DNA of 64,000 nucleotides from Aspergillus flavus. Its lineage: Eukaryota; Ascomycota; Eurotiomycetes; Eurotiales; Aspergillaceae. Made by a program: the position numbers and the translations under genes. Location: contig NC_092405.1 of assembly GCF_009017415.1 (NCBI RefSeq), forward strand, positions 3,720,001 to 3,784,000. Reading direction: 5' to 3'. Below the pieces are notes generated by a model. It saw only the letters and a list, made by a program, of their open reading frames with translations, searched no databases and had not been told where the DNA came from. Positions 4,061 to 62,465 of the stretch are shown here, one piece after another (the first letter of the stretch is position 1; every line of letters starts with the position of its first letter).

Positions 4061-5401
4061 ATGTCTCTTCGGAACGACCTTGACAACGGGCGGCCAACCA
4101 AGCGGCTCGAGTCATGGGATATCGCGTCAATGTGGCTCAGCGATCGAAAAGACGAAATCCAGGACTGGTGGGACTTCAGCGGACCCCAACTAGCAACACT
4201 CGCACACGAAGCCGGCTACAGCACCATGACCCAAATTGAATTACTCTTGTTCTTTCGCTCAGTTGTGTTACCAAGGATGGGGCGGTTTCCTGATGCGTGC
4301 CGGCCACGTGCGTGCGCCCAAAGCCGAAGCATACTCACCTATGACGGCTCCCCTATTGAATATAGTTGGAAATGGAATAACTCTGCGAACGACCATCCGG
4401 AGATTCGTTTTTGCGTGGAGCCAGTGGGCGATGGTTTGTGTGCCGATGGGATCGTGGGTGGTAAGCTTCGTGCCACAGATGAAATCCTGGTGCAACTTGC
4501 AAAGCGAGTGCCAAGTACGGATCTTGAATGGTATCATCATTTTCGGGATTCATTTGGCCTTGGGCATTGGACGGATGGTCCCCTCCATGAAGACGCAGGT
4601 ACGTGGCAGATGCGAAGGCCACGAATGCCAGTTGCCTTTGAATTTACGCCAAAAGGAATAGTCACCAAGGTGTACTTTACCCCACCAGCCACTCTGGATG
4701 ATATGCCCTCTTTCAACATGTTTGCAGATGTTGTGCGGCCGATTTGTGACAAAGATACTACGGCCCTAGATGAGTCTATGGAATATCTTTCCAGGGACCC
4801 GGTTGGGGCCACTTTACGACCCGATGTTTTGGCAATTGATTGCATCTCGCCTCTAAAATCACGGATAAAGCTCTACGCAGGAACGGCAATGACAACTTTC
4901 ACGAGTGCCATCTCTGTACTGACACTGGGTGGGCGGATCCCAGTGACTCGACACTCCATCGATGAGATGTGGGCGTTGTTCCGCATGGTCCTAGGGCTCC
5001 ATGATAAATTCTTGCAGGACGAGGAACTACCCGTGCAGAATCCATTCCAACCGAGTCGCGCACATCCTGAAGACTACTACAGCGGCTTACTCTATTATTT
5101 CAACCTTGCACCGGGGGCACAGTTACCCGACGTGAAACTGTACTTACCCGTGATCCGGTACGGCCGCTCAGATGCAGACATCGCGCTCGGGTTGCAACGG
5201 TTCATGGCGTCGAGGCATCGCGGACAATATGTAGATGGATTCCAGCGGGCTATGGAGATCATCAGCCAGAGGCACAAGAGCGGAAATGGCCATCGTATCC
5301 AGACTTATATTGCATGTTCATTCGATAAGGACGGCTCTCTTTCACTGACGTCGTACCTGAATCCTGGGGTTTATTTTTCATCGGAAACAGTTGATGTTTG
5401 A
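4061..5401 (+). CDS. DMATS-type aromatic (indole) prenyltransferase
   Basis: Single-exon gene for 446 aa, the usual length (about 420-460 aa) of fungal dimethylallyl-tryptophan-synthase-type enzymes. These soluble ABBA-fold proteins move a prenyl group from DMAPP to an aromatic acceptor, usually tryptophan, an indole alkaloid or a cyclic dipeptide, without a DDxxD motif. The diagnostic segment YDGSPIEYSWKW lies at about residues 94-105. Its Glu100 matches the conserved Glu that activates the indole. Further family blocks are KVYFTPP and DCISPLKSRIKLY, whose Lys/Arg/Tyr residues bind the diphosphate and shield the cation. The start is a clear ATG and no lesion is seen. No NRPS, PKS or P450 lies in the window, so the acceptor may come from elsewhere or the gene may be an orphan. 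Substrate and position of attack cannot be read from sequence alone. Confidence 0.92.
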   Translation: MSLRNDLDNGRPTKRLESWDIASMWLSDRKDEIQDWWDFSGPQLATLAHEAGYSTMTQIELLLFFRSVVLPRMGRFPDACRPRACAQSRSILTYDGSPIEYSWKWNNSANDHPEIRFCVEPVGDGLCADGIVGGKLRATDEILVQLAKRVPSTDLEWYHHFRDSFGLGHWTDGPLHEDAGTWQMRRPRMPVAFEFTPKGIVTKVYFTPPATLDDMPSFNMFADVVRPICDKDTTALDESMEYLSRDPVGATLRPDVLAIDCISPLKSRIKLYAGTAMTTFTSAISVLTLGGRIPVTRHSIDEMWALFRMVLGLHDKFLQDEELPVQNPFQPSRAHPEDYYSGLLYYFNLAPGAQLPDVKLYLPVIRYGRSDADIALGLQRFMASRHRGQYVDGFQRAMEIISQRHKSGNGHRIQTYIACSFDKDGSLSLTSYLNPGVYFSSETVDV

Positions 5402-21752: not shown

Positions 21753-23572
21753 ATGATTAAGATTGACTTCGGCTTTCGAAGCCGTAGCCAGGATGGTGAG
21801 GGTGAGGGCTGGTTTGGCAAACTGCCGCAGTTCACTGTGATCTCCCGCCCGGGGTCGTCGTTAGGGCACAGCACCCCTTCGTCCGGACTGGCAACCCCGA
21901 CCGAAGAAAAAGGCCTCACCACGTTACAACCTTGCCCGGAAATTGGTCGACTGGCCTCCTGGAGAGGTGCTTTGATCTTGCTGGTGACTTCCGGCTCCCA
22001 ATTTCTTGATAATGTTTTCATGACCAGTTCGAACATCGCGCTATCCTCTATTCAGGAAGAATTCGGAGTTTCCAGTACCGAGTTACAATGGATGATTTCT
22101 GCATACACTTTGACATTTGGTGGGTTTCTGCTACTCGCAGGTGTGCTCTCTGATCGGTAAGCCTCGTTTATCATATTATTTGGAAGGTGGTTCTAATGCG
22201 CGACAGATATGGGAGAAAAATGATTCTGTGCCTCGGCCTCTTCTGGCTGTCCGTCTGGACACTCGCTATTGGATTTGGCCAGTCATTTATCCAGCTTGCC
22301 GTCTTCCGTGGTATCCAGGGAATCGGCGCTGCATTGACTGTTCCATCGGCGATCGGAATCATCAGTTCCTACTTCACTGGTGTTGACCGCACTCGGGGAT
22401 TGTCTATCTACGCAGCATCTGGGACACTGGGATTCTGCGTCGGCCTCATCTTCGGTGGTTTCCTCACCTCATCGCTGGGCTGGCGATATATTTTCTATTT
22501 AATTGTCACCATCACAGGCTCCATCGGGGTCCTAGGCGCCATCGTCCTCCCCAAAGACGACTTGGCTGGGAAGGAAAAGCCCAAGATGGATTACTTTGGA
22601 GCCCTGCTGTCTACAGCTGGCCTCATCCTGCTTCAATTTGTGCTTTCAAGTGGGGGTGATTACGGCTGGGGCACCCCATTCATCATCGTTCTGCTCATTC
22701 TCGCGGTCGCCCTTCTGGTCGCTTTTACCTTCCTTGAATGGTACATTTCCTATCCGATCATGCCCTTAGATCTGTGGAAAATCCCCAATTTCGCAGGTCT
22801 TTGGATTGCAGGATTTAGTAAGTTTTCCCAAAGGCCAATGACCTCGGTCACTGCTAACAATGATTAAGCCTGCTACGGCAGCTATCAAAATGTCATCTAC
22901 TACATTGTCCTGATGGCACAACAGGTGGACAATCTGTCCGCCGGCGAGACAGCCCTTCGGTTCTTGCCTATGGGCGTCATTGGATTCATTGCCTCCATGG
23001 GAACAGGAAAGGCTCTCGAATATGTGAACGGGAAATACACTCTTATTGCCGGGCTGGTCCTGACGGTGTTAGCCCCCGTTCCAAGTGCATTGACCGCGAC
23101 AGACTCAGAGCCAGACTTGTACGTACCCCAAAGACCTCCCACTACAATGAAAGCCACTAACAATGACAGCTGGGTTAATGTTCTTCCTACATCCCTTATC
23201 AGTATTACAGCCGTATCGCTCATCTTCGTGACAACGAGCACCACAATCCTGACAACAGTCCCAGTTAACGTCAAGAGTTTATGTGGTGGAATGGTAAGCC
23301 CTCTGCTTCATCTCCCTATCCAACAATAATACTAACTCACACCCCAGCTAAACACAGCCTTTCAAATCGGCTCTGGTGTCGCCCTTGCCATCTCTGCCGC
23401 AGTCACAGAAGCAGTCGATATAAAAAAAGGTCACGGCCTTGCCCAGCAGTATTCCACCGGTCTATGGTGCTCTGCCGGACTAGCAGCTCTAGGTCTCGTC
23501 ATTGCGATGATCTCCGTTCGCAGACGAGGCATCGGACCGGGCGATAGGAACGATACGCTAGTTGCGATTTAA
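21753..23572 (+). CDS. MFS transporter, DHA2-like (14-TM drug:H+ antiporter type)
   Basis: Five exons: 21753-22156, 22207-22817, 22869-23118, 23170-23293 and 23348-23572. Introns are 50, 51, 51, 51 and 54 nt long except that there are only four: 50, 51, 51 and 54. Each has a CTAAC/CTAAT-type branch site, and phases agree, giving 537 aa. A cytosolic Ser/Pro-rich N-terminus of about 65 aa is followed by the first helix (GALILLVTSGSQFLDNV). The loop signature GVLSDRYGRK spans intron 1, and RGIQGIGAALTVPSA is the motif-C-like helix region. About 14 hydrophobic helices place it with DHA2-type exporters of fungal metabolites or drugs. The ATG at 21753 is preferred because upstream extension needs a TTG. 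No metabolite gene is immediately linked; the MDR reductase downstream is convergent. Confidence 0.9.
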
Positions 23573-24940: not shown

Positions 24941-26092
24941 TCAGTCAAAGTCCACAACCACCTTACCGAAGTGGCTTCCCTGCTGGAAGTAATCATATGC
25001 CTCTTTGAGTTCATGGAACTTGAATGAAAGACCGTCAATCTGTGGCTTAAGATGGCTTACTTCGATGGCAGCATTCATATCCTCTTGAAGCTGCCTGTTG
25101 CCCACCAAAATTCTTCGAACAGTCGCTAGCACCGAGCTGTGAGAGCTGCCAGCCCCTCTTTCAGAGTCTCCTCTTCTCCCAATGGTCGCGATGCATCCAT
25201 TGTTAGCAACAGCCTGGGAAGATTGGACCATGGTATTGGCAATCTCGACCACAAAATCAGCTCCTCTCTTTCGGTGCGATTGGCTCTTGGCCGTCTGACC
25301 CCATTCACTATCCTCGGCATAATTTATGATCACATCTGCGCCTAGATCTCGCAGCTTCGCACCCTTTTCCGCATTGCTAGTTGTCGAGATGACTTGTGCG
25401 CCCCCGAGCTTCGCGAACTGGAGAGCAAATATGCTAACACCACCGCTGCCTTGCGTTAGAACCACATCACCCGGCTTCAACTTTCTAGGGCCACCATAAA
25501 GGGCATTCCAAGCTGTGAGTGCAGCACAAGGTAGAGTTGCAGCTTCACGATAAGACAAGGTTGACGGAATTTCGACGCAACCATGCTCGTTGAAGACACC
25601 GTACTCGCAAAATACCCCGTCATAAGTTCCGCCTAGCTGATGTTGAATGTCCGTATCCTTCACAGAACCATATAGGTGGGTCAAATGAAAGATCGGTGAC
25701 ACCCGCTGGCCAGTAGAAAATCTGGTCACCTTTGGGCCAACTTTGACAATTTCACCCGCAGCATCAGAGCTTTGTCACTAGTCAGTACCCCCTTTGATTA
25801 GAGACGAAATAGCTCAAAAGTCTAAGTACTCACCCTGGAATTACTCTGTCCTTAGTTTTGATATAATATTGTCCCTGTATCTCGATGTCAGTCAGGTTGC
25901 TTCAATTCTCGGTATACCCAGCGTATTGGAAGACCTATGCGATCTCACATTTGCAATCATGATGTCTCTGAAATTGAGTGAAGCTGCGTGGAACTTTACT
26001 AGAACCTCGTAGTCACCTGGGTCAGGGATCGGAACATCTTGGAGCTGTAGGGAATCAATCCCACAAGTTCCGCTGAGGACCCACTGTTTCAT
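24941..26092 (-). CDS. MDR-family NAD(P)H oxidoreductase (zinc-less quinone-oxidoreductase/enoyl-reductase type)
   Basis: Exons 26092-25949, 25874-25834 and 25769-24941 give 337 aa. Intron 1 is 74 nt (GTGAGA...ATACAG). Intron 2 is 64 nt (GTGAGT, branch CTGAC, acceptor AAG); the AAG acceptor is required for the frame and restores IPGSDAAGEIVKVG. The N-terminal GroES-like domain includes VKFHAASLNFRDIM. The Rossmann domain has LTQGSGGVSIFALQFAKLGG for NAD(P)H binding. The zinc-ligand Cys/His set of alcohol dehydrogenases is absent, so a reductase of quinones or activated double bonds is likely. It ends KVVVDFD. The substrate is unknown. Confidence 0.88.
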
Positions 26093-29907: not shown

Positions 29908-31311
29908 CTACAATTTAGCCCTTTCCCGAGCATGCAATTCCCGTCTGGCGGGCCCTCCGCGACTTCCGTCTCCCAAGAAAGTATCTTTATCGTCTTTGTA
30001 CTCAGTCCGGAACCGCCACTTCTTCGCCAAATGCTCTGGAAGACGCTTCGTGAACGCCAGGAATGTGTAGTCGCCTAAGACAGGGAGGAATTTAAATGCG
30101 CTGAATGAACTGTGTCAGCATATATTGTCATTAAGAGCAAGGTTGTGACTTACTGTCCACTACCCCCTCCAGCGATGAAAAGGTTCTTGTAATCGGGGTG
30201 AGAGTCCATAATGAAATCACCGGAAGGTGTGTCTGTATACCAGCAGAGCGCCACCCGCTCAAACGGGCGATCGGCTAATTCCGGAAGGATCTCACGCAGA
30301 CCAGTCCTAAGGCGGTCTTCTCCATCTGGTGGAGTAAAATTGACGCGTTGACGAGGGGGTATCAACGGAGGCGACGAGATATTAGTCTTTACGCTCTGAT
30401 GATCTTCGGCGGTAGGTGCACGTGTGTAGCCCCATCCATGCACGGCCATTTTGAGTGTTTTGGTATCGTCATGCGAAGGGAAGTTGAACCAACCCGTGTT
30501 GAAATTGGCGTAAATGGGAACATCTTTGTACTTCTTCACTTCAGCATCCGTGAGCGGCGTGTAGCCGATGACCTGGGCGGTTGCCAAAGTCGAGTTGTAC
30601 ATATCCACCAATCCCGAGGTCCAGGCACCGGAAGCAAGGATGAAGTGATCACCTTCAATCGAGGTTCCCGCAAGAGTCCGAACAGCCTTGATCTTCTTTT
30701 GCGAATCTGTGTCGAGGCTGATAACTGTGCCTGCGCGACCGCAAATAAATGACACGCCGAGTTCAAGACAATCGTCGCGAAGCTGGCTGACAGCCTTATT
30801 GGCGTCTGCCCATCCTGCCTGTTCATTATAGTAGCCGGTGAAATTAGGAGTAGCGAGAGTCCCACTTAGAATAGGGTATCTACTCTTTGCGGCCGCAGCA
30901 CTATCCAGCTTCGCCCATGGCAGCTGTTTCTTGGTTAGTGCAGCCGTCGTCTTTTCAATCCAGGCCCGACCATGTACAGTGGTGTTGCCAGTAAGAATGA
31001 AAGGTGCTTTGAAGAAGATGCCTTGATATTTCGGTAATTGAGACCATTTCTGGTATGCTTCGTATGCAATGTTGAGATAGTCTTCGTCGGCGTAATCGAA
31101 ACGGATAACACGGGAAATATCCGAGCTGGAGCCATCCGGAACCTGACCTTGTTAAACATGGGATAGTGAACAAAAGGAAAGAGAACTTTACAGGCGGCAT
31201 GTGGCGATCAACAACCGTAACATATTTGTAGCCCTCCGACGCCAGCTTGGCAGCCGTGGACAGGCCGAACACGCCTGCCCCAACAATGACGATTCTGCTG
31301 TTCTTATCCAT
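29908..31311 (-). CDS. Peroxisomal FAD-dependent amino-acid/amine oxidase (DAO family; fructosyl-amino-acid/saccharopine oxidase-like)
   Basis: Exons 31311-31192, 31142-30154 and 30109-29908 (introns 49 and 44 nt) give 436 aa, and I read exon 2 open throughout. The FAD-binding motif is VIVGAGVFGLST (GxGxxG at residues 11-16), with the ribose-binding acid in VVDRHMPP. SSSDISRVIRFDYAD and FTGYYNEQAGWADAN are typical of the sarcosine-oxidase/fructosyl-amine-oxidase branch (PF01266). The C-terminal FAD segment GGGSGHSFSAFKFLP is formed by the second splice. The protein ends in Ala-Lys-Leu, a PTS1 peroxisomal signal, as known for fungal amadoriases. It should oxidise an N-alkyl or glycated amino acid, releasing H2O2. 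The exact substrate is open. Flanking relics of a DapA-like and an aminotransferase gene hint at an old amino-acid-use locus. Confidence 0.88.
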
Positions 31312-31582
31312 CACGTCAATCGAACCCGTTGGTACTGAATTTCCCAGACAGGTATGAATGTAAATAGCGAGAAATAAGACGACGGGGGAAAGAAATTTCA
31401 AAAAATGGAGCAATCGTCATAGATGCCCCCACATGATAAGCTCCCCGGAATCTGAGGGTTTCCCGGTCACGTGTCCGGCATTTGGACGTGAGTTTCGTCA
31501 AGTGCCCGCTCAAGGATGATTACAGGTTATCTCACTTGGCTCTCATATCTGAAGTGGTCTGTTCATCGCAACAGTCAAAGCC

Positions 31583-46231: not shown

Positions 46232-47220
46232 ATGCCCTATAATTAAACATGGCGTGGAACGTCTATACTAGTCGATGCACACGCAATACGCTGCTATGAA
46301 TTTCAATGGATTAGCATATCTCCATTATATTCATATTGTAACACTATGTAGACTCACGGTCGCACAGAGCCAAAAGCTCGAGAAGATATCATTCCGATAG
46401 GGTTGAGGCGTAGTGAGAACATTTCTATTTGCCATCTAAATTGGGCTGCGTAGTGTCAGCCTCTGTGCGGCCTACCGACGATGATTCACAGGCTGTGCTC
46501 CTGGTGTGTAGAACGTGTGATACGATTATGACAAGGCCATTGTTTGGATCCTGGAATATATTTACGACTTGTATTGCTAGGATTGCCAAGACATGCCTAA
46601 GCAACAGTAAGACTCACCTGTATTCTCTTTCATTAGCCTGGGTGGTTCCGATACCATCAGAAGCTGGCGCGTTAAGGGGCTGAGCGCTGTGCACAGTGCT
46701 CTAACTGCTGATGATAACCACTAATCATTTTAACATACAGACAAATGGAGACGGCGCAGTATCCGGGCCATACCAGGATATCTATTGGCCCACGCAAAGC
46801 TAGTGTCGTACAGGATGGTCTGGCCGTGTACAAGGGATGGTTTGCTAGAGACCCAAACCTGTCTTTGGTGGAGGTGCCCTCTTGGGCATCGTAGCCACCT
46901 CCTAATGTCGCATTACTCCTCACCAGCTGAACTGGTTGGTACTACCGCAGTCCTCCGAGCGTCTATAGAGAGCATGGGATTCGAGATGTTTGGCTCTTGT
47001 GCGACAGAGACTCACGTCAGGCTGTTAATCTGGTTGTTCCCCTCACTCCCGCCCATTCGCGTTCTCCCAGCACGAGTTTATCCCTCCTTAACTTGCTGTC
47101 CAGGTTGTTGAGGTGGTTATTCATCCTTAAATGCCCAATGTAAACCACAGATCCAAACAAAACCAGAAGACGAGCTAGTCAAACGCAATTGAGCAATCGA
47201 AAGTGACCTGCTTCACACGG
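46232..47220. other. Gap with one short unexplained open frame
   Basis: An ATG frame of 49 codons at 46745-46894 contains KASVVQDGLAVYKGWF and looks coding-like, but I recognise no family. It may be an exon of a decayed gene. Nothing else was seen. Confidence 0.35.
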
Positions 47221-50200
47221 ATGAGATCTAAAGTCCACCATATCTGCAATCGCAAGGGCAAGGAGAAGGAAAAGCAAGAATCCGAATTACCATCCTCTCT
47301 TGCGCCGGCCATCGTCGATCCCCAAGAACAGGCAGACAGCGAGCCTGCTGTGAAGCCTCCCATTATCGAGGTGCAAAGTATTGGTGAAGCTTCAGCTAGT
47401 GGAGCTATTCTGGATGAGTCAACGCTGCCCGAGCCTCTTTCTCTTCAGACATGCGGCGAAGATGATAATCGCGAACAGATCAAACCTGAGACTCCGGAAC
47501 GACCCCAAAATGCTAAACGTGACTTGTGGCACGAGGCCTATGTAAGGCTGGCTCCCGAGCTTCAAGAGAACCTGAAAAGCCTTGGCTTTGATCAGCAGAG
47601 TCCTGAACCTGTGAAGCAGCGGATAGAAGGCGTCCTAGCTGAAGCCAAAAGGCAACGGGACAAATGTGAAGAGAAAGATTGGATCATCAAGGTTGGAGAT
47701 CATGAGATCAAAGTTCGCGATACAGCGGTGCAGATAATCGGGTGGGTTACAAAGATCGGAGACCTTGCTGTTGGATTCGCTCAGCCAGCAGAAGGGCCCT
47801 GGTCCGTGATCAAGCTTCTTCTAGGTGTGAGTTCCCCACCATTGTAGCCAGTCCGACCAACACTAACTTCTGGCATTAGGGCATCGAAGTCTATGACAAA
47901 GAAAAGGGTTCCTTGCTTTCTATTGTAGAAAACGTTACCCGTGTGATATATTCCGGCCAGATTTACAAGTCTATCTACAAGTTGGATAAAGCCGGAGTGG
48001 AGCCTACTAGTCGACTCTATGATGTTCTGGTGGAGCTTTACAACTTTATATTGGAGCTGGTGATCAAGTCAACCGACGTTTCCTCTAACACGGCTGTCCA
48101 ATTTCTAAAATCTGTGTTCGATCCAAAAAAAGCATCAGATATGCTGTGTACCTTGAGAGACCACGAATCTAGGCTTGCGGATGCCGTTCGTGTATGTGAG
48201 GCTACGGCTCAGGCGAACCTGGATTCTCTCCTACGAATAAAACTTGAGGATGCTCACATGGCACTAGTCGGTGTTACTCATCGAATTGAAAACGTAGTGC
48301 AGCGAATGGACGATCAAGAGCGGGACAAGTTACTTTCCTGGATATCAGACATAAAGTACGGCAATCACCATGACCACGTAGTGGAAAGAAGAACACCCGA
48401 AACCGGAACGTGGCTGATACGACATGAAACATTCCGCGAATGGAGGGATTCGGCTTCATCTGGCATACTGTGGCTTCGAGGATATCGTGAGTCCCAAATA
48501 GCCCTTTGCCTTGCCCAGAGACTGTTCTTCTGACTAGCCTTAGCTGGCACCGGTAAAACGTTCCTTACATCTCACGTCATTGACCACACCTCTGCAAATT
48601 CTACCTGCACTCAGAACCAGGACTTTGCCTTCTTCTACTGTTACAGAGAAGAGGAATTACGGAGAAAGTCACTGCACGTGCTTCGATGCTTCGTTCGGCA
48701 GCTTGCTGGTCCCTTGAGCGACTGTCAATCGGTACGGATCAGTCTTCAAGAGGCATGGAGGGCTGCCAAGGATAGGGGATCCGACCTAAACCTTGATGCA
48801 TGTAAAGCCCAGTTACTTTCATCCTTCAACCTATACTCAAAGACTATCATTGTGCTAGATGCTTTAGATGAAGTTGCTGTCAATGAACGACGCCAATTGA
48901 TACGAGTGCTTGATGAGCTTGACTCACAGTCCACGAGCACGGTCAAAGTCTTCATTGCGAGTCGACCTGATGGAGATATTTCGTTCCAATTTGCGTCGAA
49001 GCCTAATGTGCAGATTAGGGCTGCAGACAACATGGAGGACATTGACAAATTTGTTACTAACAAGCTTGACAAAAATTACCGCTTTGGCAGACTTACCATC
49101 ATACCTGAAGATTGACATTAGGAAGGCTCTTTTAAGTGGTTGTGACAATATGTAAGGCATCAACTATTTCTAAGCAACTATGCCACTAACATGAGTGGCT
49201 AGGTTTCAGTGGGCAGCTCTTCACCTCGCCCAGATTGAGCAGCTAGCTGGCGACGAAGATTCCATTTATTATGCTCTTAACCATCTTCCACGAGGATTGG
49301 AAAAGACATATGACCAGATCTACGGCCAAATACAACAGCTGGCACCGCCAACCAGGCAAAAAGTACAGAATGCCCTCATGTGGGTGATGTTCGCTAATCG
49401 CCCACTGAGGAGTGATGAACTTCTGGCTGCTATCCGCATGAATGTCGAGACGGGCGACATAAAGTTAACCAGCCATATCACTGAGAAGCCATTGTAATCA
49501 TTCAGTCAAAGTCTCCTTGTAGTTGATTCCAAGAAGTATGTGTGGAGATTGTCCCATCTTTCTGTTGTTGAGTATTTCGAACGTCGCCAGACCTTGCTGG
49601 ACCGACCGGCTCGCTTCAATTGTGGCAGTGTTTGCTTGTCATTTCTCATCGAGGCTTATGGCAAATTGAATGACCATTCTGCTTCAGTTCATCCGAGCTC
49701 ATCAGCGGTGACGGTATTCCCTGGCGACAAGCTGGACATCAATAACCCGTTCCACCAATATGCCAAGCAACATTGGCCTGTGCATTTTCGCAACAATGTG
49801 CCAGATGATCACTCGAAGAGGATATTAAAGAGATTCCTCGGTTCACCACAGGAAAGCAGCCCATACTTTCGACATTGGATACAATATATATTTAAGCACC
49901 AAGACTCCTTCGAATTACCGTATGGTAATGGGAGAGTGTCCCAGGATGATCTAGAGCTCATTGACACACCGGTCCTTGCTATGGCATGGCTCGGACTGTA
50001 TCACCCACTTCAGGAGTGGTGGGAAGACGAGCACATTGACCTGTTGCTCGAAAACAATAGGGGAGAAACCTTGATTGCTATAGCTGTTCGCGTGCGTTGT
50101 GAACCCTTATGCAAAAAGCTTGTATCCAGATTGCCCAAAGACCAGCGTACAAGGGGCTGTGGATGTGCTCTTATTATAGCAGCCAAACAAGGGGACGAGA

Positions 50201-51207
50201 ACCTCGTAAGGTTTCTAGTCCAGGAGGGAAATGCAAATGTCAACTTAGTGGCACGCGGCTTTACAACCGCTCTTTGTGAGGCATGCGTGATAGGAGCGCT
50301 GAATATTGTCAAATATCTAGTGGAGGAAGCACAGGGCAGTGTTGATGTTCGAACAGAATGCGATAACTACATCAGTGCACTTGCTGCTGCATGCCATAGT
50401 GACTCTGCTAGCAGGCTGGAGCTTGTGAAATATCTATTGGAGGAAGCAGGTGCGGTGGTCGATCCACCGCTAGTGTCTGGCCTTGCAAACAGCGCACTTG
50501 GCATCGCGTCCAGTATAGGGCCACTAGATCTTGTCAAATATCTAGTGGAGAAGGGTAATGCTGATGTCAACTTACAATTAGAAGGCTGGCGTTGTTCACA
50601 TGGCACCGCACTAGCCGCGGTAATCAGACGGAGATTGGAGATTATCAAGTATCTAGTGACCGAGGTGCATGCTGACGTCAACCAGCAGCTCCGGTTTGGA
50701 CACACCAACACCGCACTTACCACGGCTGTTGAGACGGGGTCAAGGGATATTGTCCAGCTCCTCGTGGAAGAGGGAAATGCTAATATAAACTTGCAGTTTA
50801 CCTGCGGTGGCGATAGAAACTTCGGCAGTACCCTTGAGTATGCTATAGCATACTCCAGCTTAATCGGTACGGACATTCTAATGTATCTGGTATCACAAGG
50901 AATTGCAGATGTGAATATCAAGCCCAATCCATTAGGTCGTGCAATCTGCCTTGAAGATCAACAAAGTGTTCAGATTTTGCTCTCAGCTGGAGCATCAGTG
51001 GACTTCAGATGGAATAACGGATCACTTTTAAGGGTCCCGAATTCCAATCTAAAGCAGATCCAGTATAGCGGTGGGGGTAGAGCGGAGGTAGTTGATATGC
51101 TACGAAAAGCGGATCCTGATCAGTGGAATGATGAAGCTGTAGAGCAAATACCTTGGCCGAAGCCCATAGAGCTATCATTAAATTTCACCATGTTGATGTT
51201 TGCATAA
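47221..51207 (+). pseudogene. NACHT-ankyrin (fungal NLR/STAND) protein gene with a frameshift and a stop
   Basis: Exons 47221-47826, 47880-48486, 48544-49151 and 49203-51207. Domains in order: a charged N-terminus; a helical region of the kind found before NACHT domains in fungal STAND proteins (DLWHEAYVRLAPELQ to about 48230); the NACHT domain with Walker A GYPGTGKT formed across intron 2, Walker B IIVLDALDE and VFIASRPDGD; a winged-helix region with FQWAALHLAQIEQL and LSHLSVVEYFE; then at least seven ankyrin repeats (50160-50940) with patterns such as DLVKYLVEKGNADVN. Two lesions occur. One extra A in the run 49071-49075 shifts the frame. A TAA at 49495-49497 lies in the resumed frame, with clear family sequence on both sides. 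Fungal NLRs act in allorecognition and immunity. This allele is probably dead, or the two defects are errors. Confidence 0.8.
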
Positions 51208-55844: not shown

Positions 55845-56526
55845 ATGGATATGACCAAACTTGAAGGCAAGGTAAGCGCCGAAATAACGTCTAGGCCTTG
55901 GTCGAGCTGACTCTTCTGCCTGTCGGCGTCAAGCTTCCGTCAGGTTCTTTGGACTTTACCGTCTTTGAATGTATTCTCAGCTTAGACGGTTCCGATGACA
56001 ACGATTCCGGCCAGAATCTAGTCTTTGGCTTCTTGGGGAAGGCAGAGGAAACCTTCGACTCGATCGAGGAGTCCCTGTGAGTAAAATACCTACTACCTCT
56101 TATACCCCCTTTTCTCCCAGGTTTCTGAACCATCGTCATGTAGTCTGTACACTCCACGAGCCCTTTCTTCTCCCCCCCCTTTAAGACAACGTAATTCGAA
56201 GTATTATAATCTAGCTAACATGATGTTTCTCCTATCCTCTATCTCGATAGTGAGGAGGACTTTTAGACTATATCAGAATATGCTTCCTCTCTTTGACAAC
56301 CATCAAGGTACTTGGGTTGATCAAGGTCACGGATGGATTGCTCACGGTTGAGCGTTACAGCTTGGGACAAAATGAAGATCGGACTGAAGCACCGGATTCT
56401 GATGATCTTGACTTGCGTCTTGAACGCGTCACGAAAGCCTACGATATTGTTAAGAATGACTATGGGGATGTCGAAGGTCCCCTTAGAGAGTTTTACGAGG
56501 AATTGGGAGACCAGAAGGGCAATTGA
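55845..56526 (+). CDS. Small acidic protein of unknown function, structure uncertain
   Basis: Tentative model: exons 55845-55871, 55895-56076 and 56277-56526, giving 152 aa with phases that agree. The middle exon encodes VELTLLPVGVKLPSG and ECILSLDGSDDNDSG. The last encodes LRLERVTKAYDIVKNDYGDV and an acidic tail. The coding look (acidic, regular strand/helix alternation) is good, but I recognise no family. The first 'intron' (GTAAGC...TCTAG) is only 23 nt, below the usual spliceosomal minimum, so the 5' end may be wrong or the intron damaged. The second would be 200 nt. It ends about 300 nt from the convergent peptide-precursor gene. Confidence 0.4.
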
Positions 56527-56833: not shown

Positions 56834-57818
56834 TTAATGAGGACCTGCTCCGACTACAACATCTGGGTGGATGACAGTCCCATCGCTAGGGACAAGTATA
56901 CCCTGTAATTCGAGCATTAGTCACGTCAGATATCAGACGATCTTCCAGATCTTCAACCAAGCCTTAAACCCCCATTGCCCCCTTTCCATCCCCCTGTTAA
57001 AAGTTCTTGTGGGCACATATGGGCAGACTTACACGCTCTTCAATCGGGTTCCCAAGTTCCAAACCCCCCTTATCGTTTTCCTGTTAGCAGTGGTTTCGAA
57101 TGTGTCTAGATAAGCTTACCCGTTCGGCGATCGGGCGTCCGTATCCCTTTATATTCTTTTATTAGCAGTAGTTCCACACCAGTTAAGACAGACTTACCCT
57201 CTCTTCAACCCAGCCGCCAGCGCCAGCAGCAGCCCCCTTTTCAATCTTTTATCAGTAATCTATTCAACAGCGTATGGGATCATGTATTCTCACCCGTTCA
57301 GCAATCGGCTTCTTAATCAAGGCCTCTCCCTTTTTATCTTTGTTAGGACATCTCTCAAGGGGTCCAGGCAGACTTACTCGTTTTTCGATTGGGACGCTAG
57401 GCGTCAGTCTGGCCTGCCCACTCAGCTGTTAGTACTCTATCAATGAGAGTATACAAATCACTTCTCACCCGCTCAACGACCGGCTTCTTCAACGCGAGGC
57501 CCTTTAGAATTTTAGTTAGGAATCTTCTCGGCATATTCAGGTAGGCTTACGCGTTCTTTCACCAAGCCACTAGCAATTCCCTTTTCATTCTTCTATCAGT
57601 AATCCATATGAAAACACAAGATTCTGATCCTGGCACACTTACTCGTTCCTCAATCGGGGTGCTGGGTGTTATTCTGCCCTTCAGTTCTCCTGTTAGCATC
57701 AGTCCAAAACTGCATTGTACTGTATGTGTCGTACCCGCTCATGGATCGAGTTGTCCGGGACAGGGGCGGCCATGATGGCACCGGCGAAGAATGTGAGCAA
57801 GATAGCAGAAAGCTTCAT
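56834..57818 (-). CDS. Micro-exon secreted repeat-peptide precursor (candidate RiPP precursor)
   Basis: Exon 1 (57818-57735) encodes the signal peptide MKLSAILLTFFAGAIMAAP and ends in HER. Eight micro-exons follow: 57678-57643, 57580-57551, 57501-57469, 57413-57378, 57329-57294, 57236-57198, 57146-57120 and 57068-57033. The last coding exon is 56902-56834. A further exon of 12 nt (56981-56970) is possible. All lengths are multiples of three and all introns are phase 0 (about 48-62 nt, branch CTAAC/CTGAT-like, acceptors mostly AAG). Micro-exons encode 9-13 residues, mostly starting with Gly and ending in ER or KR, usually after PI/PV-x, for example GRITPSTPIEER, GYGRPIAER and GLALKKPVVER. The total is about 141 aa. 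Signal peptide plus repeats ending in KR/ER suggests secretion and kexin-type cutting. The adjacent UstYa gene suggests a modified peptide. Cleavage at ER and the final product are inference. Confidence 0.72.
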
Positions 57819-57942: not shown

Positions 57943-57949
57943 TATATAT
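57943..57949 (-). promoter_or_regulatory. TATA-like box of the peptide-precursor gene
   Basis: TATATAT lies about 125 nt upstream of the ATG at 57818 on the minus strand, a usual distance for a fungal TATA element with a short leader. Confidence 0.4.
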
Positions 57950-58972: not shown

Positions 58973-59923
58973 ATGCCAATATTCCTCAAACGCATGAAAG
59001 AATACACATACGAAAAACTAAACAACAACGAGCCCCCAAAACCCTCAAAGACAACCTTCAACTGGCAGACCGGCATCCCGTGGATGCTCTCCGGGATTCT
59101 AGCTCTCTTATCAGGCTATCTACTATTCCGACAACCTGTGACACATGGGGCATACAAAACTGACTTTCCAGACGTGCAACCGTACGTCTCTTATGAAGAG
59201 CGCGTCTTCACAGGAAAGTTCTACTATAATGAGGAGACGCAGATGATAGAACGAGAGGTAGATTCTACAAAACCTCAATATGCGGGTCCGCCTAGTCCGG
59301 AGATAGATGCTGCTTGGGCTGAGTTGCTTCGTGGTATTTATTCCTATTTTACAATCAAATATCTAACAACCAATCCACATCCTAACGAGCTCAAAATTAA
59401 ATAGGAGAATTCCCCGCAATAACAGACCAAGAAGCAACACCCTACAAACCCTATATCCAAAAGTTCCCAGATACAGGAAACTACCACTTCGAGTACGTCT
59501 CCCATCCCATCTCAAACCCATACATACCCATACATACCCATACATACCTAACCATACCACAACACCCACTAACCATAAAAAAACAGACTCGACGTCTTCC
59601 ACTCCCTCCACTGCCTAAACTACATCCGCATGTACCTAGACAAAGACTACTACTCCGCCCACCTGGAACACCACGACAGCTTTCTGCGGAATTCATCCCA
59701 TATGCCTGATAATTGGGGCCAGGTGCATCTCCACCATTGTCTGGAGCAGGTTGTGCAGTCGGTGATTTGTCATGCGGATTTGTCCCCCGTGCCGATGTAT
59801 GGCTGGAAGGGAGTGCCGGTTTTCTTGGGCGTGGGTCAGACACATACATGTCGGAGGTGGGAGTCTATTCGGGAGTGGATGGACGTGAGGAATGAGGTTC
59901 GGAAACCGCTTGAGGAGGAATAG
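58973..59923 (+). CDS. UstYa-family (DUF3328) oxidase
   Basis: Exons 58973-59333, 59405-59492 and 59587-59923 (introns 71 and 94 nt) give 261 aa, the normal size. One transmembrane helix lies at about residues 33-52 (TGIPWMLSGILALLSGYLLF). The lumenal part carries the two family motifs: HSLHC at about 155-159, within DVFHSLHCLNYIRMYL, and HLHHC at about 197-201, within VHLHHCLEQVVQSVICHAD. The end has HTCRRWESIREW. UstYa-type proteins are copper-dependent-type oxidases that cyclise or oxidise the core residues of fungal RiPPs such as ustiloxins and asperipin, and also occur in other clusters. Both HxxHC motifs are intact. The divergent micro-exon precursor is the obvious partner by position. 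Intron 2 contains a short CATACATACC tandem repeat. Confidence 0.92.
59521..59550 (+). repeat. Short tandem repeat TACATACCCA in UstYa intron 2
   Basis: A 10-bp unit is repeated three times within the second intron of the UstYa gene. It is a microsatellite-like run without effect on the coding frame. Confidence 0.7.
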
Positions 59924-60163: not shown

Positions 60164-60805
60164 TCACTCAGGCACCGGAAAGCACTGCTTCATATCAAAC
60201 ACAACCTTATTCTCCACAATGACCAGCCCAACCAAGACAGGTTCATCCACATAAATCGCTCCCTCCTTTCCCTGTGCCTTTTCACATTTCTTCCCACAAA
60301 GTCCTGGATTCCCTCTATGCGGTCCAAGTCCCCGGGGACAAACAAACACCTCACGAGTACCTCAATGCGGGAAATATTCCAGTTCCGTATTCGCCAATCG
60401 AGTATAGCACATCAGATACTCAGGAACTTTCATCACCTTCACTGAATATTCTATCTTCACAGCTTGAAGATACTTCTCCTCCTCTAACCACTCTCGAAGA
60501 CCGTCAATGCCGAAGTACCTTGCTTCCTGGAGCAGCTGTAGATAAAGACTATAGTTATGTCCGCAAGCTCGGTCGTAGAAGAGAGGGAAGATGCCTCGAC
60601 GACAGTAGAGAAGAATATGTTCGAAGAGATTTGGGTCTGCGTCGAGGAAGTAACAGCCGTCTGGACGCTGGTTGTTCCATCGAGTGGAGAAGAGAGCTTC
60701 GAAGAATGTGCTTTTCTGGGAGAGGGTCGATTTGGAGGTTATGAACTGACGGTCGCTTATCTGCAGGAAGACCTGATCGTTGTTGGTGTCGTTGGTGGGT
60801 TCCAT
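60164..60805 (-). pseudogene. BTB/POZ (KCTD-like) protein gene with one in-frame stop
   Basis: ATG 60805. The BTB domain is clear: VFLQISDRQFITSKSTLSQ, then FFEALFSTRW, DADPNLFEHILLYCRRGIFP and LQEARYFGIDGLREWL. This T1-type BTB mediates homo-oligomerisation and often couples to cullin-3. After EYFPH the frame meets TGA at 60362-60364. It then continues in the same frame with the family's C-terminal Cys-rich block FVCPRGLGPHRGN and CGKKCEKAQG, to a normal stop at 60164. Trp (TGG) is expected at the stop position by family pattern, so a single G-to-A change explains it. The product would be cut from about 209 to 147 aa. The BTB part alone might still fold. Confidence 0.75.
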
Positions 60806-61103
60806 TTTGTTTGTGGTTTGTGGTTTGTCTTGGGATATGGTTTTGGAGGGAGTGTAGAAGGCTTAGGTGTTGTTCTGGGTAGGATGTAGGAGGTTGAAGT
60901 AATATATTGAGAACACTTGATTATGTAGGAATATGAGGCTAACACAAGGTATTGTTTATCCGGATACAACACAGAGATCGGTCAATTTGCTAGGCAGGCG
61001 TGTGTTGTTCTGCCTAGGCACTGACAGATTTTGCAGTTTGTGTTAGTATCCATACCAATTAAACAACCTAAAGAGTTAACACACACGCAAACTAGCCTAC
61101 AAT

Positions 61104-62465
61104 TCACACTTGAGTGCCAAACCCCTCCACCCTCTCATACATATCCTGGATAAACACAGTAGACCACTCAACGCTCTTCGGATCCCCAGTGGGCACCAGC
61201 TGACTCGCATAAAAACCACACAACCCAACCTTGCGATCAATCCACCAGAAGAGATTCGGCAAGCCAGCCCACCGAAGACTTCCAGCCTTCTGACCGGTTG
61301 TATGATCTTCCAAGACGAGTAAACCACCGAGCCCCCAAGTCTTCTGCAGCCCTAACGGTGTCCCACCAAGAAAATTGTTTATCTCTGGAATGGACAGTGT
61401 TGCATTCAACATCTCCTTGGAGGCGGCGGATAACTGATCCTTGAACATCTCGTCTACAGTATCAGGGCGCAGAATCTTTTCATCATTGCGCAGAATAGAG
61501 GCAAGGACTTTCAAAAATGACGGTCCGCTCGTGAACACACCCCATCCACCATACTCTTCGACAACGGGGTCCGGCCATACGCGCCCTGGTATCCAGGAGA
61601 TTGAACCATTTGGGTCTGCCGGGGTGCCGAATTGAGTTATACCGCCGGACCGGAAATTAAAGTCGGCTAGTTTGGAGCGAACCTCGTCGTTCTTCTCCAG
61701 GTGGAAAGTCAAGTCTGTGATCGCTAGTGGTTCGCAAATGTTCTTTTGGATGTAGTCCTCTAGGGAGATATTGTTGAGGCGGGCGACGAGTATCCCGGCC
61801 CAGTCGAGCGAATAGCCGTACACGAAGCCCTCGCCGGGCTCGAAAAGGAGGGGGAGATTGGTGCGCTGCAATAGTGGCGTGCTTTCACCTATGTCGGGAG
61901 TGCGACCCGTCGACATGCGCCAACGTATTATGTTAGGATCGAGGAAGTCGTACGCGATGCCGGAGGAATGTGTCAAGAGATGTCTAGGCAGCGCGTCAAT
62001 ATTCACGTCAATGCTAGTATGAGGACATGTTGGTAAAGAGGAGACGGGATATATACCGTAACGTGATCTTATTCTTCACCGGCACCAAAATCAGATTCTC
62101 GGTACCCTCTTCAAAGCCCTTGAGGATCTTGAGGTCTTGAAGCTCATCAAGGACAGTGGAGACATCATCGTCCAGACCAAACTGGCCTCGTTCGACGCAT
62201 TGCAGCACTGCGACGGTAGTAATGATCTTGGTGCACGACGCTATAGTGAGTGTCGTGTCGAGTGTCAAAGGTCGCTCAGCGCCTGGTTTCAAGGACGCAC
62301 TGCCAATAGTCCTTTCGTAGTGGAACTTGTCTGCTAAGGGATTAATATAGAATGGTAGGTCACCCTCTTTATCAGCATACCGGCTGTATCAGTAGCAAGT
62401 AGGATCAGACCGGGAATCTCGCCTGCCGCAACTGCGGCCTCGATTTGCTGTTCCTTTGCTGTCAT
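61104..62465 (-). CDS. Beta-lactamase-like serine hydrolase/acyltransferase
   Basis: Exons 62465-62381, 62333-62057 and 61983-61104 (introns 47 and 73 nt) give 413 aa. It belongs to the class-C beta-lactamase family (PF00144). The nucleophile motif SCTK is at about residues 62-65 in LTIASCTKII. HLLTHSSGIAYDF follows the second splice. The Tyr motif is YGYS in EPGEGFVYGYSLDW, and WGLGGLLVLEDHTTG is near the C-terminus. In size and motifs it resembles fungal LovD-like acyltransferases and esterases, which move acyl groups on metabolites, but the substrate cannot be told. There is no signal peptide. It is intact, unlike the distant family member at 14740-16424. It is near the UstYa locus, though any link to it is only positional. 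Confidence 0.9.

Follow-up and report, generated by a model that had tools for sequence, protein, structure and literature searches.

The window, by which we mean the whole 64-kb stretch of Aspergillus flavus DNA that was analysed, carries on its minus strand a gene of ten exons with its ATG at 57818 and its TAA ending at 56834, which is exactly the span given by an earlier note made on this DNA. The exons are 84, 36, 30, 33, 36, 36, 39, 27, 36 and 69 nt long, each is a multiple of three and lies in phase 0, and the spliced product has 141 residues. Exon 1 (57735..57818; minus strand, as are all features of this gene) encodes MKLSAILLTFFAGAIMAAPVPDNSIHER, a putative signal peptide judged by eye from its charged start, hydrophobic core and A-x-A motif. 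It is followed by eight micro-exons: exon 2 (57643..57678, 36 nt, GRITPSTPIEER), exon 3 (57551..57580, 30 nt, GIASGLVKER), exon 4 (57469..57501, 33 nt, GLALKKPVVER), exon 5 (57378..57413, 36 nt, ARLTPSVPIEKR), exon 6 (57294..57329, 36 nt, GEALIKKPIAER), exon 7 (57198..57236, 39 nt, GAAAGAGGWVEER), exon 8 (57120..57146, 27 nt, GYGRPIAER) and exon 9 (57033..57068, 36 nt, GGLELGNPIEER). The terminal exon 10 (56834..56902, 69 nt) encodes GILVPSDGTVIHPDVVVGAGPH and the stop codon. A signal exon and, after it, eight exons of 27-39 nt, in phase 0 and divisible by three, had been proposed in the earlier note, and this layout was confirmed by the gene model, by a motif scanner (see below) and by homologous proteins. 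An alternative 3' end, with a short exon that stops in frame within the present intron 9, was given up for the 69-nt terminal exon; the homologues decided this point, and the end is identical in all three public A. flavus entries (P0001-P0003). By eye, a possible promoter element (TATATA, 57943..57948, minus strand) was seen approximately 125 nt upstream of the ATG.

The first eight introns measure 48-62 nt, in agreement with the earlier description, but intron 9 (56903..57032), with 130 nt, falls outside that range. The donors follow GTRAGN in eight introns and read GTACGA in the ninth, and in all nine a CTRAY branch-like motif starts 17-19 nt before the intron end. Seven acceptors are AAG, which is probably uncommon in Aspergillus, and two are CAG. 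Every micro-exon ends in an arginine codon, preceded by Glu in seven and by Lys in one (exon 5, the sole dibasic end); if the junctions at the ends of exons 1-9 are counted, ER occurs at eight and dibasic KR at one. The common end PI/PV-x-E-R or EKR claimed previously holds for the arginine in all eight units and for PI/PV-x in six of them, but not for exons 3 and 7, which end in LVKER and WVEER.

The spliced product is the same as the public protein of A. flavus NRRL3357 (P0002) once four extra residues of P0002 are removed, and differs from another A. flavus entry (P0001) at 2 of 141 positions. The four extra residues of P0002 lie before exon 3, at intron 2, whereas in a third A. flavus model (P0003) the 48-nt intron 5 (57330..57377) is read through. 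These differences between the models may be annotation noise. Intron 5 is open in frame and a multiple of three, and if retained it would lengthen the product by 16 residues and keep the frame. The gene is already in the annotation, as a 'hypothetical' protein. Two expectations of the earlier note were not borne out: that annotation would easily miss the gene (13 homologues are present in public databases as hypothetical proteins), and that no frame would exceed about 40 codons (minus-strand stop-to-stop frames within the locus reach 54-59 codons). According to the available text of the respective papers, the JGI pipeline supplied the annotation of the section Flavi genomes, for which transcriptomes were also sequenced (PMC7046712), the chromosome annotation of NRRL 3357 drew on RNA-seq (PMC8496237), and another NRRL3357 annotation used AspGD ORF sets as EST evidence together with trained ab initio prediction and was said to be helped by an RNA experiment (PMC7534430).

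To estimate how often such a chain of exons would arise by chance, a scanner was used that requires an AG, 15-60 nt open in phase 0, a GTRNG donor and an intron of 42-75 nt with a YTRAY motif. It found a chain of eight micro-exons at the locus, and elsewhere in the window, with the locus masked, the best chains were of two micro-exons on the plus strand and two on the minus strand. The only disagreement with the gene model concerned exon 5, for which the scanner chose an acceptor 12 nt upstream (start at 57425); the homologues agree with the gene model. Dinucleotide shuffling of the 64-kb minus strand, repeated 60 times, gave a longest chain of two (46 shuffles) or one (14 shuffles); when the locus alone was shuffled 2000 times, the longest chain was zero in 154, one in 1785, two in 60 and three in 1. 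Tandem Repeats Finder detected nothing. On the strength of the shuffle controls and of the conservation described next, we reject an origin of the exon chain by chance or artefact.

A search of approximately 5.8 billion proteins, with an earlier 124-residue model of the product as query, returned 13 homologues from 11 Aspergillus species, three of them A. flavus entries, with BLASTP identities of 38-97%. We take all 11 species to belong to section Flavi. No precomputed Pfam domain was present in any of the 13 proteins, and a profile built from them, when used to look for more distant precursors, retrieved the same 13 and no others. The whole signal exon is present in 12 of them; the model of the remaining one (P0013), which is a weak match by itself (E 6.8e-4), starts later.

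The homologues differ from each other by whole units. When the sequences were split after Arg before Gly or Ala, with EEK, AEP and ITER-P ends also taken as unit ends, each contained two to eight micro-units, mostly with E-R before G: eight in the three A. flavus entries and in A. minisclerotigenes, seven in A. arachidicola, A. sergii and A. parasiticus, six in A. pseudonomiae, A. pseudocaelatus and A. caelatus, five in A. novoparasiticus, two in A. bertholletiae, and two or three in A. pseudotamarii. The units are 9-13 residues long in the A. flavus gene and up to 16, perhaps 19, residues long in the relatives, the next residue being Gly or Ala. Altogether 90 Arg-Gly/Ala steps were counted, which are not independent as they come from related species and include three A. 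flavus entries; one of them is internal to a unit (P0005), and this number does not include ends of the types EEK, AEP and ITER-P. The residue before Arg was Glu in 76 steps, Lys in six, Gln in three, and five other residues occurred once each; Gly followed the Arg in 80. The loss of the ER/KR ends in relatives had been named in the earlier note as a result that would speak against its reading; at the protein level these ends are preserved. By eye, the A. pseudonomiae homologue contains one three-unit block that is repeated, and that of A. parasiticus a pair of TPS-type and KKP-type units twice in succession. The units of the relatives are probably also separate exons. When the last five codons of exons 1-9 were compared, third positions were the most variable (mean diversity 0.58 against 0.28; Mann-Whitney p = 0.013, 15 columns), as is expected if the amino acids are under selection.

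Similarity within the gene was assessed by comparing 28 exon pairs and 36 intron pairs with 300 shuffles; with so many pairs, a few values of one or two in 300 can be due to chance. The scores of exon pairs 4/6 and 6/8 were reached by none of the shuffles, those of 2/5 and 2/9 by one, and those of 2/6 and 6/9 by two. Exons 2 and 5 are 69% identical, and six of their 11 differences are at third codon positions. Differences at third positions were the most numerous class in five of the six whole exon pairs, the exception being 4/6 (4, 4 and 4 differences by codon position), which showed no third-position excess. For nearly whole introns the scores of pairs 2/6 and 1/8 were reached by none of the shuffles, and that of 4/5 by one. 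When the donor and the last 25 nt were removed, no intron pair had a score reached by six or fewer of the 300 shuffles, which places the likeness between introns largely in their 3' parts. Intron 9 contains, from 56981 downward, a stretch that resembles exon 7, with a score (the best of eight exon comparisons) that none of 1000 shuffles reached. The stretch has kept a branch-like motif and an AAG acceptor in front of it, it has an in-frame stop inside and no donor at the expected end, and it looks like a dead micro-exon that was absorbed into a longer intron. The likeness of exons 4/6 and 6/8 and of introns 2/6 and 1/8, the apparent dead micro-exon and the homologues with two to eight units support, at the level of sequence, a conserved gene with one repeat per micro-exon that would grow and shrink by units. 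The earlier suggestion of growth by exon-intron duplication was in this respect upheld. Since each unit forms a cassette in phase 0 and brings its own intron, unequal exchange from intron to intron would add or remove whole peptides with the frame intact, and exon skipping could change the peptide set.

No sister gene was found in the A. flavus genome: a DNA search returned the locus alone, and the five matches obtained with a protein search, among the best-scoring candidates, were all exons of the locus itself. A micro-exon scan over 51 records, the window and 50 loci with 358,174 bases in total and many overlaps (one record, L001, is the same locus), detected no second chain of at least three. 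The scanned records included nine other places with UstYa genes, with approximately 7-12 kb on each side, and five further ones with approximately 1.5 kb on each side.

Divergent from the micro-exon gene, at a distance of 1155 bp from ATG to ATG, lies a UstYa (DUF3328) gene on the plus strand. It consists of three exons (58973..59333, 59405..59492 and 59587..59923). Pieces of the window matched PF11807 with 26.2 bits (first ORF) and 85.1 bits (third-exon piece), both above the cut-off of 25. The spliced protein is identical at 251 of 261 residues to a close homologue (P0014), which itself matches the family with 135.8 bits (E 2.6e-39). The available text of PMC12048977 describes a pair of HxxHC motifs in UstYa and a part of UstY homologues in the oxidative cyclisation of precursor peptides. 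Both motifs are in exon 3 of the window gene, as HSLHC and HLHHC, and the corresponding positions (H155..H158-C159 and H197..H200-C201) were invariant in the ten aligned sequences out of 24 UstYa homologues. A PDB search with P0014 gave a single match at chance level (E 0.29).

The neighbourhood of the two genes was followed in other species by using an equal listed size of contigs as a stand-in for the same contig. By this measure the precursor-like gene and a UstYa gene are together in A. caelatus, A. parasiticus, A. arachidicola, A. bertholletiae and A. pseudocaelatus; in A. caelatus they also have consecutive locus tags. No UstYa entry with the size of the precursor's contig was listed for A. 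minisclerotigenes, A. sergii, A. novoparasiticus, A. pseudonomiae or A. pseudotamarii; as the list was clustered at 90% identity with the longest contig standing for each cluster, the two genes may or may not be linked in these five species. UstYa relatives were also seen where no precursor was detected, in A. bombycis, A. hancockii and Penicillium, and those of A. hancockii and Penicillium have 49-58% identity.

There was no tyrosinase match in the window, and the nearest one on this contig is approximately 680 kb away. In nine window ORFs at 52-62 kb no methyltransferase, transporter or peptidase was found above cut-off, a beta-lactamase-type hydrolase aside. No methyltransferase was found by Pfam among 26 window ORFs or pieces, which were searched piecewise, so that a spliced gene could escape. 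As to transporters, the nearest one seen, an MFS piece at 22 kb, is approximately 35 kb from the locus, and the only kexin-type match in the genome is on contig 1, which is not the contig of the locus. Directly downstream of the 3' end of the micro-exon gene there is a small spliced-looking gene (approximately 55845-56526, plus strand), which could belong to the cluster; a Pfam search of two of its pieces gave no match. Beyond the UstYa gene lie a BTB protein gene (60365-60862, minus strand) and a beta-lactamase/serine hydrolase (PF00144) gene (61107-62388, minus strand). Farther off are a DMATS (tryptophan dimethylallyltransferase) gene (4061-5398, plus strand), the MFS transporter piece (22187-22864, plus strand), a zinc dehydrogenase (24944-25729, minus strand) and FAD oxidoreductase pieces (30153-31413, minus strand), which perhaps make up one or more metabolite clusters. 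Pieces of an NLR-like gene were seen at 47203-51204 (plus strand), consisting of an NPHP3_N match below cut-off (47913-48530) followed by an ankyrin-repeat ORF (49540-51204). On contig 5 approximately six UstYa genes are found within 10 kb (C5:112800-122799), with a tyrosinase approximately 7 kb beyond; we presume that this group may be the ustiloxin cluster.

The UstYa neighbour strengthens the comparison with RiPPs. As in the dikaritins (ustiloxin, phomopsin and asperipin, or ust-RiPS), there is a putative signal peptide, several core repeats and a UstYa (DUF3328) gene close by, so that the layout of a secreted repeat-core precursor beside a DUF3328 gene was found, with imperfect repeats and secretion judged by eye. 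Unlike in the dikaritins, introns and ER|G sites, not dibasic ones, part the cores in A. flavus, aromatic residues are missing from most of these cores, and no tyrosinase is near. Dikaritin cross-linking usually takes place at aromatic residues, which only two of the eight micro-exon units (exons 7 and 8) contain. ER rather than KR at eight of nine sites, and aromatic residues in two of eight units, fit a standard dikaritin badly. The cluster definition of Ding et al., as cited in the accessible part of PMC12048977, includes a tyrosinase and a methyltransferase; the former had no match in the window and the latter none among the 26 ORFs or pieces searched. Clusters lacking some of these genes are known. 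Repeats of the dikaritin type are described at the protein level, and the descriptions available do not mention one intron per core.

The epichloecyclins of Epichloe (gigA cluster) resemble the present case in that a precursor with several cores and a DUF3328 gene share a small cluster, and in having cores that vary between strains (available text of PMC7317419). They differ in that the gigA repeats are 27 residues long and a kexin gene lies inside the gigA cluster; in A. flavus the kexin-type match is on another contig. No passage on exons or introns was found in the portions of the gigA paper that were accessible (PMC7317419). Kexin-processed repeat proteins (KEPs), for example the alpha-pheromone precursors, are likewise secreted precursors from which several related peptides arise at regular sites. 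In Agaricomycetes, introns are present in some KEP genes, as intron-less sequences were cloned from cDNA (PMC9769878, text in part). The KEP pipeline of PMC6339444, as far as its available text describes it, asks for a signal peptide and at least three repeats with KR, RR or KK kexin sites between them; the A. flavus gene has the repeats but only one dibasic spacer, so that this pipeline, which wants kexin sites between the repeats, would probably have missed it. The words exon, intron and splic- are absent from the main text available of two KEP surveys (PMC7329392 and PMC6339444).

With respect to exon layout the closest likeness lies outside the fungi. Schistosome micro-exon genes encode secreted proteins from many symmetric micro-exons, but to our knowledge these exons are not peptide units that are cut out. 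The eight phase-0 exons of A. flavus (27-39 nt, all but one no longer than 36 nt) have a layout of the schistosome type; this is a likeness of layout and not of kinship. There is no sign of a relationship, and the A. flavus exons are candidate cut-out peptide units. Protein variants made by alternative splicing also belong to the schistosome type; in A. flavus the counterpart would be the gene models that differ at introns 2 and 5, possibly through annotation noise. Micro-exons are usually up to 36 bp, and a fungal in-frame micro-exon is present in Xlr2 of Trichoderma virens, but there it is a single regulated micro-exon in the gene of a transcription regulator, in contrast to the array in A. 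flavus; the authors of that study considered functional microexons previously undescribed in filamentous fungi (PMC11121469, text in part). Among the best-ranked papers of the literature searched, which leaves most subscription journals outside, neither this gene nor any fungal precursor with a single core in each micro-exon had been reported, and there was no mention of its locus tags or peptide strings. As far as these searches show, a RiPP-like multi-core precursor with micro-exon architecture would be a known kind of precursor in a new architecture.

Taking these observations together, the best reading is that the gene encodes a multi-core precursor of the RiPP type, similar to those of ustiloxin and the epichloecyclins, which has grown through exon-intron duplication and is cut after arginine. 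To the claim that it is a secreted precursor with eight short peptide cores, each encoded by one micro-exon (and a ninth by the terminal exon), modified by UstYa, we assign a probability of roughly 0.6. The pre-mRNA would be spliced from ten exons as modelled, a step backed by the sequence and the annotated models, and the protein would enter the secretory pathway. Cleavage after the Arg of each unit would then fall to a protease of the kexin type or another trypsin-like one, and UstYa would oxidatively modify some or all units, either released or still linked; all steps after splicing are modelled on the ustiloxin, asperipin and epichloecyclin pathways. In evolution, the exchange between introns described above would alter the number of peptides, and exon skipping could alter their set. 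The exact sites, ER|G as against the dibasic KR, RR or KK usual for kexin, sit uneasily with the multi-peptide precursor proposed in the earlier note, which is partly supported. Also counting against the best reading are the missing tyrosinase, methyltransferase, transporter and peptidase matches near the locus, the UstYa relatives for which no precursor was detected, the five species without visible linkage, the absent third-position excess in exon pair 4/6 and the loss of intron likeness after trimming. According to the available text, the kexin site is generally KR or RR and less often KK (PMC6339444), but processing has been evidenced at sites with other residues before Arg (PMC2515848, available in part), which makes ER an unusual yet possible kexin site.

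A more far-reaching form of this idea is that the gene is a fungal peptide library operated by splicing, in which skipping and retention pick the cores, intron exchange adds and deletes cores between species, ER|G is cut by a protease other than kexin and UstYa modifies the products. We consider this form possible but tentative.

Other explanations have to be weighed against the UstYa-modified precursor. The gene could encode a KEP giving linear signal or surface peptides, with the adjacent UstYa acting on something else. A signal exon followed by near-repeats with cut-like sites between them is the layout of a KEP (PMC7329392 and PMC6339444, text in part), and most units lack an aromatic residue, but ER is not a usual kexin site, and the UstYa gene is divergent at 1155 bp, with contigs of equal listed size for both genes in five other species. 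Moreover, a UstYa gene would be one of the two neighbours by chance in approximately 0.3% of cases, if approximately 23 UstYa genes (a grouping of 34 genome matches) are assumed among 13,715 genes (PMC8496237, text in part). Taking both sides into account, we regard a KEP as unlikely. Somewhat less probable still is a secreted repeat protein of the wall or of a scaffold that is not cut at all, and in which the ER ends were kept since an exon end GARCGN helps to define the donor. The Glu-Arg codons are located exactly at the 5' splice sites, and a role of GARCGN in splicing could conserve them without a protease. However, the Arg is kept through varied codons (CGG, CGA, CGC, AGG and CGT) and third positions are the most variable, which points to selection on the amino acids, and homologues with K, Q, T or V before the Arg retain the Arg. 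That the gene is an annotation artefact or a decaying gene, with splice-like motifs arising by chance in non-coding repeats, is hardly credible, for although there is a dead exon in intron 9 and the gene models disagree between annotations, the shuffle controls, the homologous proteins with 38-97% BLASTP identity in 11 species and the third-position bias all speak against it.

If the UstYa-modified precursor is the right reading, the gene would represent a class of fungal peptide precursors that is hidden from genome mining by dibasic sites and well-annotated repeat frames. It would also offer a compact system for following how single exons, and with them single peptides, are born and die among sister species, and a test case for splicing that selects peptide products. 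Should the splicing library be real, it would constitute a new architecture of RiPP precursors and, as far as the literature searched shows, the first micro-exon gene of the array type in a fungus.
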